Assembly (NCBI GenBank): GCA_015057775.1
Contig: SVDT01000003.1
Span: 1-60,807 of the forward strand
Reading direction: 5' to 3'
DNA length: 60,807 bases
Source: Paenibacillaceae bacterium
GTDB taxonomy: Bacteria; Bacillota; Clostridia; Lachnospirales; Lachnospiraceae
A program made the position numbers and the translations under genes. This document shows, piece after piece, positions 30,580 to 42,375 of the stretch; within the stretch, counting starts at the first letter, position 1, and each line of letters begins with the position of its first letter. Below the pieces are notes generated by a model. That model was not told the origin of the DNA. It worked only from the letters and a program-made list of their open reading frames with translations, and searched no databases.

Positions 30580-31426
30580 TTACAGGAACGCCCTTGCTGC
30601 AGTAGTAAACAAAAAGCAGACAATAACTCCGGTTACCGTAGGAACAACCCAGGACAAAAGAGTCCATTTCATGCTCCCGGTCTCCTTCCTTATGGTCAGG
30701 CAGGTGGTGGAGCAGGGCCAGTGCATGAGGGAGAAAAGCAGGGTGCTGACGGCAGTCACCCAGGTCCAGCCATGGGCAATCAGCAGATCCCTTAATATGG
30801 ATAAATCATTGATTTCCCTTATGCTGCCTTCGGAAAGATAAGCCATTATCATAATGGGAACAACAATCTCATTGGCAGGAAAGCCAAGGATGAATGCCAG
30901 GAGGATCACGCCGTCAAGGCCGATGACTCTGGCAAAGGGATCTAAAAAACCGGAGCAGCGGGTTAATAAGGTCATATCCCCCACTGTGATATTTGCCATG
31001 AGCCAGATTAACAGACCTGCGGGAGCAGCCACTGCAGCCGCTCTTCCCAGAACAAAGAGGGTCCGGTCAAATATGGAACGGACAATGACCTTTCCGATCT
31101 GTGGCCTGCGGTAAGGGGGCAGCTCCAAGGTAAAGGAAGAGGGAATCCCCTTTAATATGGTTACAGAGAGTATTTTGGATATTACAAGGGTCATGAAAAT
31201 TCCAAGAAGAATAATACCTGACAGAATCCCTGCAGATAAAAGAGTGGAAAATGATCCCGCTGCTCCTCCAATAAAAAACATGGTAATAATTGCAATCATG
31301 GTTGGGAAACGACCATTGCAGGGAACAAAGTTATTGGTTATCATTGCAATAAGCCGTTCTCTTGGAGAATCAATAATCCGGCAGCCTACAATTCCTGCTG
31401 CATTGCAGCCAAAACCCATGCACATG
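30580..31426 (-). pseudogene. feoB: feoB, C-terminal piece (fragment 3 of 3)
   Basis: Encodes the last 280 or so residues of the ferrous iron transporter. It begins exactly at MCMGFGCNAAGIVGCRIIDS, the conserved segment at the start of the second Gate region, and continues with NNFVPCNGRFPTMIAIITMF, GRAAAVAAPAGLLIWLM and GFPANEIVVPIMIMAYLSE to a normal C-terminus with a final TM helix. It lacks its own promoter and ribosome site. The bases directly before it belong to element 1; removing the element joins it in frame to the middle piece at 38370. Confidence 0.9.
31421..31426. repeat. Attachment core of element 1, left copy (CACATG on plus)
   Basis: CATGTG on the minus strand is shared with the other junction at 38370-38375. 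Next to it, inside the element, lies AGAAATCTATGC, which recurs in inverted orientation at the other end, as expected for the two attP arms of a serine integrase. Confidence 0.7.
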
Positions 31427-31437
31427 TCGGGAGAAAT

Positions 31438-33057
31438 CTATGCTTTTTTACTGTCTGGAGACTCTGACCGGTAACAAATCCTGACAGTCATAATTGTATT
31501 GTCTTTCTGATCCGGATCTTTCCCTGACTGAAAAATTTCAATCCGGTCAATAAACTGGTGCAGCAGATCAAAAGCTGGAATCCTTTTTTCCCTTATCTCA
31601 TTTAATAAACAATCCACAGCCTTCTCTGACTCCTCTATGCTTTTCCACTCACATTTGGTCATTTGCTTTAAGGCATTTGCTTCTGCCCCAATCTCCTTTA
31701 GCTCCTGTTCATAAGAAATGAGCAGCTTACAGAAACGTTCTTCTCCCACCACTTCATTGACTCGATCCTCGTAAAGCTTTCCAATAATTCGCTCAATCTG
31801 TCTCTCCCTTTTTTTTAAAGATGCAGCCGCCCGTTTTTCTTCTGGATTGCCTCTGTTTCTTCCATAAAACTCTAACTGGCCCGCAACCTCTTTTCTCTCT
31901 TCTTCTGACAGTGTAATGAGAGTCTCAAGCTCCTGGGATACAATCTGGCAGAGCAGATCATAATTCATGTAGTGGTTTGTGCATGCAGTTCTCCCATACT
32001 GCTTATATCCGCTGCATACCAGCTTTCTGTTCTCCTTATGACTACCCCCTGTTGTGGTCATCACTCTTTTGCAGTCCCCACAGTACACCAGTCCGGAAAA
32101 TGCATTGGAAAATTGAGCTGATTTTGATCTCTTCCGTGGGACACTCCGCCTTCCTGCCTGCTCAAACAAATCTTTGGATACAATGGCGTTATGCTTGTTT
32201 TCTACCACGATCCATTCCTCTTTCGGTATCCTTAAGGTCATCTGACTTTTAAATGACAGCTTGGAGGTTTTGCCCTGCACCATATCCCCTGTATAAACCC
32301 GGTTGGAAAGAATCTTGCAGATGGTGCTGGATGTCCAGCCCTTTTCTCCTCCAACAGTCTCCATATCCACCTCCTTCCGTTTAAAACGACGGTAACTGGC
32401 CGGAGTTTTAATACACCTCTCATTCAGCTCCTTTGCAATCTTTAATGGAGATTCTCCCCTGGAAGCCCGCTCAAAGATGTCCCGCACCACTGGTGCCGTC
32501 AGAGGATCAATTAAAAGATGGTTTCTATCACCAGGGTCCTTTCTATATCCATAAGGAGCATAATTTCCGATATATGCCCCGTCTTCCATCTTGGTTCTCA
32601 ATGCGCTTCGAATCTTTTTTGATGTATCTCTGGCATACATTTCATTGACAATATTCTGAAAGGGAGCCAGATCATTTCCCCGATTGTTTGAATCATAGCC
32701 GTCATTTACTGCAATATAACGAACCCCTTTAGCTGGAAAATAAATCTCTGTGTACTGACCTGTAAGTATGTAATCCCTTCCAAGCCTGGAAAGATCTCTG
32801 GTGATTACAAGATTTACCTTCTCCGCCTCTATATCTGCAAGCAGGCGTTTCCATGCCGGACGATCATAAGTAGTCCCGCTGTAGCCATCATCTGCGTATT
32901 CTCCGTATATAAAAAAACCATTTCGGTCAGCATAGGAACGCAGCATGCTCCGCTGAGTATTAATGCTTGCGCTCTCCCCAGTCCCGTCGTCTTTGGAGAG
33001 TCTCATGTACAAAGCCGCCTTATACTGCCGCCCCTCTTTGTCTCTTTCTCTAATCAC
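31438..33057 (-). CDS. Large serine recombinase of element 1 (TndX/TnpX-like)
   Basis: A 539-aa recombinase: N-terminal resolvase domain with the catalytic serine in ALYMRLSKDDG and the conserved VITRDLSRLGRDYI; a recombinase domain (NYAPYGYRKDPGDRNHLLID); a zinc ribbon (YCGDCKRVMTTTGG, with later cysteines in KLVCSGY and TACTNHY); a coiled coil near residues 400-470 and a variable tail. It resembles recombinases of Tn4451/Tn5397-type clostridial elements. A GTG start at 33057 overlaps the end of the 50-aa gene. The stop codon lies within the attachment arm. It appears intact and is the obvious agent of excision. Confidence 0.95.
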   Translation of the reverse strand: MIRERDKEGRQYKAALYMRLSKDDGTGESASINTQRSMLRSYADRNGFFIYGEYADDGYSGTTYDRPAWKRLLADIEAEKVNLVITRDLSRLGRDYILTGQYTEIYFPAKGVRYIAVNDGYDSNNRGNDLAPFQNIVNEMYARDTSKKIRSALRTKMEDGAYIGNYAPYGYRKDPGDRNHLLIDPLTAPVVRDIFERASRGESPLKIAKELNERCIKTPASYRRFKRKEVDMETVGGEKGWTSSTICKILSNRVYTGDMVQGKTSKLSFKSQMTLRIPKEEWIVVENKHNAIVSKDLFEQAGRRSVPRKRSKSAQFSNAFSGLVYCGDCKRVMTTTGGSHKENRKLVCSGYKQYGRTACTNHYMNYDLLCQIVSQELETLITLSEEERKEVAGQLEFYGRNRGNPEEKRAAASLKKRERQIERIIGKLYEDRVNEVVGEERFCKLLISYEQELKEIGAEANALKQMTKCEWKSIEESEKAVDCLLNEIREKRIPAFDLLHQFIDRIEIFQSGKDPDQKDNTIMTVRICYRSESPDSKKA

Positions 33058-33202
33058 GACCTCCTGCCTCCAGCCGTTTCTTTAACAGGCAGAGAACCAA
33101 TTCCTTTACGGATGCCTCTCCTTGATAACAGCGCTCGATCAAAACCGCAGTTTGCTTTTCTCCCCATTTTTTTTCATAGGCGCTCTCTTTGGACAAATCC
33201 AT
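33050..33202 (-). CDS. 50-aa protein upstream of the element 1 recombinase
   Basis: Starts at the ATG at 33202 (MDLSKESAYEKKWGEKQTAV), with AGGAGGTGGG nine bases upstream, and overlaps the recombinase start by eight bases. It is charged and probably helical, with no membrane segment. Small proteins of this kind often precede clostridial serine recombinases; a directionality-factor or regulatory role is possible but unproven. Confidence 0.7.
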   Translation of the reverse strand: MDLSKESAYEKKWGEKQTAVLIERCYQGEASVKELVLCLLKKRLEAGGRD

Positions 33203-41885: not shown

Positions 41886-41896
41886 CGATTTTACCA

Positions 41897-42070
41897 CTAA
41901 ATACATGATCCGGTGTGCTGGTTCATCCCAGTCAGCTGATTAAATACCGTACTTTTCCCCACATTGGGGTTTCCGGCCAGCGCTATCACCAGATCTTCCG
42001 GCTCCTTTTTTTTAATTTCAAGTCCACAGTCTACCGATTTGATTCCCATGGATTCTCTGCTTAGTCCCAT
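41897..42070 (-). pseudogene. feoB: feoB, N-terminal piece (fragment 1 of 3)
   Basis: From the ATG at 42070, which overlaps the feoA stop and follows GGAGGAAGAC, the frame encodes 57 residues: MGLSRESMGIKSVD, then the G1 P-loop ALAGNPNVGKSTVFNQLTGM and NQHTG, where feoB homology stops at the element 2 core; SCI and a stop come from the element. It would be translated as a short truncated G-domain peptide. It carries the GTP-binding P-loop that the other pieces lack. Confidence 0.9.
41909..41915. repeat. Attachment core of element 2, right copy (TCCGGTG on plus)
   Basis: CACCGGA on the minus strand, identical to 39516-39522, at the exact point where FeoB homology ends in the N-terminal piece. 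Confidence 0.65.
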
Positions 42071-42375
42071 ATGTCTTCCTCCGCAGTGACACAGGCAGCC
42101 GCAATCCCCTCTCCATAACTGGGCTCAAAGGACTCCTGGTCATGATTCTGTATCAAAACCCTGACGGAATCTTCATTTCGCAGGGCTATTACAGCACCTC
42201 TTATTAAAAATGCAGTTGGATCCCCAAGTGGACTTTTCCCCACGCACTCTACTACAGTGCCCTCAATCAGTCCCATATCCTGTAATCTGCGTCTCATATC
42301 ATCACAAACGGTCAGTCTGGAAATGATTCCTTTCTGACCTCTTTTTAAGTCATTTAAGCAAAAGCGTCCCGACAT
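42061..42375 (-). CDS. feoA: FeoA-family ferrous iron transport protein
   Basis: Preferred start is the ATG at 42375 (MSGRFCLNDLKRGQKG), seven bases after GGAGGT; an in-frame ATG nine codons earlier has no ribosome site. The 104-aa product is an SH3-like FeoA domain (RGQKGIISRLTVCDDMRRRL, DMGLIEGTVVECVGKSPLGD, FLIRGAVIALRNED) with a C-terminal extension of about 25 residues. FeoA supports FeoB-dependent Fe(II) uptake. Its stop overlaps the feoB start. It remains intact although feoB is split. Confidence 0.9.
   Translation of the reverse strand: MSGRFCLNDLKRGQKGIISRLTVCDDMRRRLQDMGLIEGTVVECVGKSPLGDPTAFLIRGAVIALRNEDSVRVLIQNHDQESFEPSYGEGIAAACVTAEEDIWD

Follow-up and report, generated by a model that had tools for sequence, protein, structure and literature searches.

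Programmed excision of DNA from interrupted genes of spore formers has been described for sigK, spsM, spoVFB, spoVR, gerE and yabG. In C. difficile, the skin element interrupts sigK, a mother-cell gene, and carries a recombinase with PF00239, PF07508 and PF13408 domains; its excision joins the gene, and a small acidic directionality factor (72 aa, isoelectric point 5.5) is produced under sigma-E and SpoIIID (PMC5025042). Serine-recombinase excision also rebuilds two late mother-cell genes of Bacillus, spsM of Bacillus subtilis, which holds SPbeta (PMC4191935), and gerE of Bacillus cereus, which holds gin, an element that is not a phage (PMC5595907). In Clostridium botulinum the prophage-like segment yin lies in the sporulation gene yabG (PMC10747680). 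Several elements in one gene are known from heterocyst-forming cyanobacteria, where nifD and other genes are interrupted in connection with cell differentiation; 10 of 87 interrupted genes contain more than one element, and nifD of Rivularia has four (PMC4874684). The locus described here lies in a stretch of 60,807 nucleotides (contig SVDT01000003.1, hereafter the window), in which feoB, encoding a ferrous iron transport protein, is split by two elements.

The feoB locus shares with skin the recombinase type, the interrupted gene and the joining of that gene by excision, while the directionality factor and the timing are proposed for feoB by comparison. Skin is a single element in a sigma factor gene, whereas feoB is a metal transporter gene that holds as many as three, each with a different recombinase. 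SPbeta in spsM and gin in gerE have been described with one element per gene in Bacillus hosts, yin occupies a different gene in a different genus, and the cyanobacterial elements belong to another phylum and another cell type. The kind of system is already known, as sporulation gene-intervening elements and, with several per gene, in cyanobacteria. A literature search, in which subscription journals were thinly covered, turned up no publication that deals with elements in feoB or with elements in this genus. Within the literature searched, the new features are (i) a ferrous iron transporter as the target; (ii) as many as three elements within a single likely sporulation gene; (iii) one element near fixation across a genus; (iv) a landing site used in other genera.

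In silico analysis of the window bore out the observation of the first-pass annotation that feoB consists of three collinear pieces, located on the minus strand around elements of 2,394 and 6,949 bp, with Pfam domains running across the pieces (Table 1). Each gap holds a serine recombinase of the PF00239/PF07508/PF13408 type, and each element has the same short core at both of its ends (CACCGGA for element 1, CATGTG for element 2), as had also been noticed. At the protein level, site 1 separates NQHTG from NWPG and site 2 separates ALTM from CMGFG. Joining at the cores restores FeoB, as had been proposed, and gives 715 aa without a stop. The arrangement is not due to chance, since both site 2 junctions fall at the same codon in 20 genomes of the genus, with further evidence in G001, G007 and G016 (G, C, L and P denote our genomes, contigs, loci and proteins). 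We consider it likely, with good confidence, that the pieces represent one gene, a likely sporulation-specific ferrous iron transporter, split by elements for which precise excision in the mother cell is predicted.

Table 1. Features of the feoA-feoB region in the window, listed in the direction of feoB transcription
Feature	Position	Strand	Basis
DtxR-type metal regulator, divergent from feoA	42533..42949	+	PF01325, PF02742
Putative sigma-K-type promoter of feoA, AACC-N15-GCATATGTTA; -10 CATATGTTA at 42407-42415	42407..42435	-	sequence pattern
feoA	42061..42375	-	PF04023 FeoA
feoB piece 1, 54 aa, P-loop to NQHTG, FeoB_N start	41909..42070	-	PF02421 positions 2-28
Site 1 left core CACCGGA	41909..41915	-	sequence
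Element 1, 2,394 bp including one core	39522..41915	.	homologous element in 13/25 genus genomes
rec1, large serine recombinase of element 1	40489..41885	+	Resolvase, Recombinase and zinc-ribbon domains across two frames (Pfam)
AAGGACAAAC and CATACAAT 5' of 49-aa ORF, presumed SpoIIID-like and sigma-E-like (-10) boxes	40384..40408	-	sequence
49-aa ORF divergent from rec1, candidate directionality factor	40211..40360	-	position and comparison
119-aa lipoprotein-like ORF, element 1 cargo, named from sequence	39779..40138	+	no Pfam match
Site 1 right core CACCGGA	39515..39521	-	sequence
feoB piece 2, 381 aa, rest of FeoB_N, FeoB_Cyto and Gate start; ends ALTM	38372..39514	-	PF02421 29-154, PF17910, start of PF07670
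Site 2 left core CATGTG	38370..38375	-	sequence
Element 2, 6,949 bp including one core	31427..38375	.	found in 23/25 genus genomes
Left arm of attP inverted repeat, ACAGAAGAAATCTATGC	38353..38369	-	sequence
CcdA-thioredoxin fusion, element 2 cargo	36867..38198	-	PF02683, PF08534, PF00578
VanW/G5 protein, element 2 cargo	35351..36862	-	PF04294
Methyl-accepting chemotaxis protein, optional cargo	33525..35267	+	PF00015
Block GTATATGGTACAAACC..GAATAAGAT..AGGAGG 5' of 50-aa ORF and rec2	33211..33251	-	alignments
50-aa ORF directly before rec2, candidate directionality factor	33050..33202	-	position and comparison
rec2, large serine recombinase, 539 aa	31438..33057	-	PF00239, PF07508, PF13408, all over cut-off
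Right arm of attP inverted repeat, GCATAGATTTCTCCCGA	31427..31443	-	sequence
Site 2 right core CATGTG	31421..31426	-	sequence
feoB piece 3, Gate and FeoB_C	30580..31425	-	PF07670, PF07664
Site 3, TTTCC in NGRFPT, empty in window	31305..31309	-	comparison with genus genomes
ORF, open reading frame; attP, attachment site of the element.

The pieces of feoB are conserved as parts of a working gene would be. For the pieces, 11 of the 12 pairs of genomes listed have a ratio of nonsynonymous to synonymous substitution rates (dN/dS) of 0-0.14, also at dS > 1; the twelfth (piece 2 of G022 and G023) gives 0.43, a value based on very few changes. For rec2 the ratio is 0.13-0.19. When the pieces are joined at the codons aligned to those of the window, FeoB is open in every one of the 20 joinable genomes and measures 712-893 aa; G007, G016 and G001 were left out of this test as pieces are missing there. 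The low dN/dS shows strong purifying selection on the feoB pieces and, with the open joins, argues against dead insertions; the stable, inactivating double insertion named as the alternative in the first-pass annotation finds no support in these values. Extra in-frame residues relative to the window occur within piece 2 of G002 (178), G022 (66) and G023 (66) (loci L069, L079 and L070, respectively).

The joined FeoB was searched against 5.8 billion proteins, and the best 120 of 7,993 scored candidates were listed; uninterrupted proteins are among them. P0001, a ferrous iron transport protein B named from Lacrimispora sphenoides, is 100.0% identical (715/715 aa) to the joined FeoB of G019, and P0002 is 100.0% identical (715/715 aa) to that of G005; both of these genomes carry element 2. 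For the joined FeoB of the window itself, no protein above 81% identity is found among the best 120 of 7,993. FeoB proteins of 821-864 aa are frequent among the same best 120, Hungatella included.

Apparent traces of the excised state are also seen in three draft assemblies. Contig C192 of G016 (5,036 bp) corresponds to element 2 from CATGTG to CATGTG. In G001, contig C37 (4,461 bp) spans element 1 from CACACGGGC to CACACGGGC; the stretch that it has in common with the feoB1 contig C10 is exactly 95 nt long and begins at the core. In the same draft C35 begins at CATGTG, and the first 95 nt of C27 end at the ATT common to both sides of site 3. In G007, the ends of C6 and of C82 coincide exactly with cores; C137 carries element 2 with 21-nt ends including the core. 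We infer that such contigs are the assembler's trace of integrated forms alongside circular or empty ones. Given two identical joined proteins and the contigs of three drafts ending at cores, precise excision very likely occurs, as far as sequence data can tell. The suggestion that excisable elements act here as a regulated switch is supported by the selected pieces, the identical intact copies and the contig breaks at cores.

Altogether 25 genomes of the genus were searched, and the regions were read in 24 of them (G010 was left out). The genus is probably Lacrimispora, judged by the identity of the protein named from L. sphenoides with the joined FeoB of G019. Element 2 is present in 23 of the 25 genomes: in 20 both junctions lie in feoB, in G007 the element has feoB flanks, and in G016 and G001 it is on contigs that start at the core and lack feoB flanks, so that feoB sequence adjoins the element in 21 genomes. 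No close orthologue of the split feoB was found in G010 (67% complete) or G011, the latter having a distant, uninterrupted FeoB with 50% identity over piece 2. Of 16 splits, the rec2 tree (19 taxa) has 13 in common with the feoB tree and 12 in common with the gatB tree, and no strongly supported conflict with either was seen; distances of rec2 correlate at 0.977 with feoB and 0.957 with gatB, values reached in 0 of 5000 permutations. G016 and G024, with frame-broken rec2, and G001, with cut rec2, were left out of the tree. Since trees and distances agree, element 2 was very likely inherited vertically from the ancestor of the genus. The G018 assembly contains the feoA-feoB region twice (L063/L085), with an N adjoining the first feoB core, which is probably a scaffolding artefact at a branch point.

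The circle junction of element 2 is symmetrical at 42 of 52 positions in the window; in four relatives the figure is 30-38 of 52. Before ccdA, at the left end of the element (window positions 38353-38260), there is a sigma-A-like promoter with a TTACA-N-TGTAA repeat, found also in G001, G007 and G016; the cargo therefore seems to be under its own control. No phage structural genes were detected in elements 1 and 2 of the window by Pfam scan, and a scan of viral contigs for rec2 gave four loci only, at 32-37% identity. A prophage origin of element 2 was rejected on both grounds. Outside the elements, at 24915-25522, the window contains two small adjoining ORFs (103 and 96 aa) resembling a paired small-gene system. 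The likely start of feoA, 42375, was chosen by the preceding GGAGG, and a longer frame extends to 42402.

Element 1 occurs in 13 genomes (G000, G001, G002, G003, G004, G013, G014, G015, G018, G021, G022, G023 and G024), and site 1 is uninterrupted in eight (G005, G006, G008, G009, G012, G017, G019 and G020), while G007 ends at the core. The rec1 proteins are 69-93% identical between species, the near-identical pair G022/G023 aside, and roughly track their hosts; rec1 is a single frame of 463-465 aa in ten relatives and an open frame of 472 aa in G001. A third element was found at site 3, between NGRF and PT, in nine genomes (G001, G002, G004, G008, G013, G014, G018, G022 and G023), site 3 being uninterrupted in 13, the window included. 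Beyond the two sites of the double switch envisaged at first, the genus has a third. The recombinase of element 3 (rec3), assigned as a large serine recombinase by similarity only, does not track its hosts. Element 3 differs in cargo between genomes: G014 has an ABC permease and a histidine kinase, G013 has YqaJ and RecT, and G018 has a conjugation-type ATPase; sugar-use genes were assigned from the sequences of G014 and G022. Wherever it could be read, each recombinase keeps its place: rec1 lies at the left end of element 1 and on the opposite strand, and rec2 and rec3 occupy the right-hand ends of their elements. The three enzymes are mutually just 20-27% identical. The elements seem to stand at three different stages, one ancient, one intermediate and one still mobile.

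Conserved genes are frequent targets of serine recombinases, and the three elements could be ordinary mobile islands that use conserved feoB codons as chromosomal attachment sites (attB), with feoB knocked out and uptake covered by the two further FeoB genes present in the genome of the window. Movement of element 3 between species would agree with this, rec3 of G004 and G018 being 98% identical while their FeoB proteins are 80% identical. So would the use of site 2 beyond the genus. Among 397 genomes of the family, at least six from other genera (G078, G119, G225, G229, G266 and G334) have FeoB split at site 2 with a serine recombinase in between, which resembles rec2 in four and does not in two. 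Nine of 80 named non-genus loci, Massiliimalia timonensis included, diverge directly after site 2, two of the nine with fewer than 220 bases of contig left; L145 and L164 were not counted, as their coordinates fell on a second FeoB. In many further family members among the matches listed, the FeoB stretch is unbroken at site 2. These findings uphold the idea of a hotspot put forward in the first-pass annotation. Nevertheless, islands that merely inactivate feoB are unlikely, given purifying selection on every piece even at dS > 1, the complete set of open joins, the vertical descent of rec2 and the indications of excised forms.

Two further loci have piece 3 starting exactly at the site 2 codon without piece 2. 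L202 (G187) has a serine recombinase directly upstream and a match that covers only aa 1-41, so that site 3 may be cut too; L199 (G203) is a second, broken copy beside an intact one.

Precise excision from feoB leads to the question of the signal, for which the feoA promoter is informative. All 22 genus genomes in which the DNA is readable (23 rows) have the pattern AACC-N15-GCATATGTTA 5' of feoA, invariant amid diverged sequence. We take CATAnnnTA to be the form of the sigma-K -10 element. The -35 element of sigma-K promoters is AC in C. difficile (PMC3789822), and the two elements of such promoters are separated by a gap of 14-16 nt (PMC517825). Judged by these features the feoA promoter fits the sigma-K type. 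A looser pattern of this type was also found at the uninterrupted second-type genes of G003 and G004, at G011 and at five of the six other-genus loci having feoA. Among the named non-genus loci, 79 of 80 had a usable upstream window, and the pattern lies 5' of feoA or feoB in 19 of these 79, compared with a mean of 0.35 and a maximum of 3 in 500 shuffles; the controls gave no match with the reversed pattern, none when the opposite strand was scanned, and 58 among 7,993 background stretches. At the other FeoB paralogues of the genus the pattern was present at 0 of 6 loci within 930 nt. In C. difficile the feoA-feoB operon CD1518-CD1517, in which CD1517 is a putative orthologue of the split FeoB, is listed as sigma-K-dependent, its ratio in the sigK mutant being 0.05 (PMC3789822). 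The C. acetobutylicum study places feoA and feoB in a transitional cluster and not in the late one (PMC2530871).

The sigK gene of the genus is itself interrupted. Its N-terminal half, judged by TIGR02846 E-values, forms a separate frame in 24 of the 25 genomes; since neither the genomes nor the controls had a TIGR02846 match over the cut-off, the split pattern and the junctions served to recognize sigK. In five genomes read whole, the sigK halves flank an element with a recombinase of 553-579 aa, the domains of which were confirmed for G017, and the draft G007 breaks at the core of the sigK element as well. The sigK-element recombinases of the five genomes are 39-42% identical over their length to rec3 and 20-29% to rec1 and rec2. 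The sigK elements at L263, L264, L271 and L273 (G009, G017, G018 and G013) are skin-like and have [NiFe] hydrogenase genes beside the recombinase; in G017 these encode a large subunit (PF00374), a small subunit (PF14720/PF01058) and a maturation protease (PF01750). The element of G012 is short and has no hydrogenase genes.

A further reading, following on the first-pass annotation, is a reversible switch of growing cells that responds to iron or oxygen. In its favour, feoB encodes an iron transporter and a DtxR-type regulator is divergent from feoA. We find it quite unlikely, since the feoA promoter is sigma-K-like throughout the readable genus genomes, feoAB of C. difficile is sigma-K-dependent in the published account, and sigK is split by the same kind of element; none of the results indicates an iron or oxygen cue, no evidence of reversal turned up, and no search was aimed at it. 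The sigma-K-like promoter together with the sigma-K-dependent feoAB of C. difficile makes sporulation the likelier trigger of excision than iron.

For excision during sporulation, a small ORF in each element is the candidate control: 49 aa in element 1, 50 aa in element 2, and 69-86 aa at the left end of element 3. The sequences AAGGACAAAC and CATACAAT, which we take to be SpoIIID-like and sigma-E-like (-10) boxes, precede the 49-aa ORF in G000, G013, G015 and G021, with variants in G014, G003 and G004; the DNA adjoining rec1 differs in G018, G002, G022 and G023. The 50-aa ORF is preceded by GTACAARC, 7 nt and AATAAGAT in 19 of the 23 genomes with element 2. The composite pattern was derived from two of the promoters, where its hits are not independent, and it was found 0 times in 1.36 Mb of named non-genus loci. 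The 16 conserved bases before this ORF gave 41 matches, against 28 for the backward control, at no more than two mismatches in eight genomes; six of the 41 are exact, all in element 2, the remaining ones include a one-mismatch place in G003 (C140), and element 2 of G012 was unmatched. Upstream of the small ORF of element 3, most copies have, by eye, a GGACATAC..CATA block. In the sigK elements of five genomes, neither the element 2 block, nor the sigma-E/SpoIIID pair, nor the composite pattern was detected.

By analogy, these small ORFs may act like the skin directionality factor, following the same sigma-E/SpoIIID logic. One small factor per element, switched on under sigma-E with SpoIIID, would turn the resident recombinase to excision. 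Both elements of the window would then be excised in the mother cell during sporulation, rejoining feoB, while the forespore genome would retain them. After excision feoAB would be transcribed by sigma-K. Up to three elements would have to leave, each by its own enzyme, before the transporter could be made.

Several points weigh against sporulation-controlled excision. With regard to the excised forms, the intact database proteins could come from strains that have lost the element permanently, and mixed strains could explain part of the core-ending contigs; moreover, the other end of C35 in G001 lies inside rec2 and not at the core, and neither G002 nor G015 has its broken contigs ending at a core. 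The rec1 of the window is broken into overlapping ORFs (40489-40980 and 40935-41885), because of which element 1 may be unable to leave by itself there and may be stuck, barring a sequencing error; rec1 is broken also in G024, where several genes appear broken in the matches. The promoters give a mixed picture too. A sigma-K-type promoter is found also at uninterrupted orthologues (the second-type genes of G003 and G004, and G011) and so bears on the gene, not on excision, and 60 of the 79 named relatives lack the pattern. The boxes of element 1 are exact in just four of 13 genomes, G002, G003, G008 and G012 do not fit the composite pattern of element 2, and the block before the 50-aa ORF is not a textbook sigma-E promoter. 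Nine non-exact matches to its 16 bases were opened (three recurrent sequences): all lie inside open frames and none before a known sporulation gene. The mother-cell timing is a matter of deduction.

The pieces might instead be separate functional polypeptides, a split FeoB that needs no excision. Piece 3 can be read as an ORF with an ATG inside the core, but no ribosome site is evident before this ATG, and piece 1 is a stub that ends just past the P-loop region; with the 20 open joins and the uninterrupted relatives, such a FeoB is very improbable. An assembly artefact, conceivable for a draft of 4.56 Mb in 428 contigs, is scarcely credible and is refuted by the same arrangement in the single-contig genomes G005, G008, G009, G017 and G019.

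Beyond the split gene and its excision, we lean towards a broader view, held less firmly, of a genus that keeps a spore-stage Fe(II) transporter permanently in pieces, in which up to three independent excisions by three recombinases of differing age of domestication, beside that of sigK, would precede iron import in every sporulating mother cell, and of a feoB that recruits new locks across the order. If this is true, the class of sporulation gene-intervening elements is wider than described, and one developmental gene can collect several locks. With three apparent stages at one locus, the domestication of a mobile element could be followed there, and anaerobic type strains make the reading directly testable. 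Iron import would be a gated late step of spore formation, and the feoB locus would represent a multi-lock developmental DNA switch on the metal supply for the spore.

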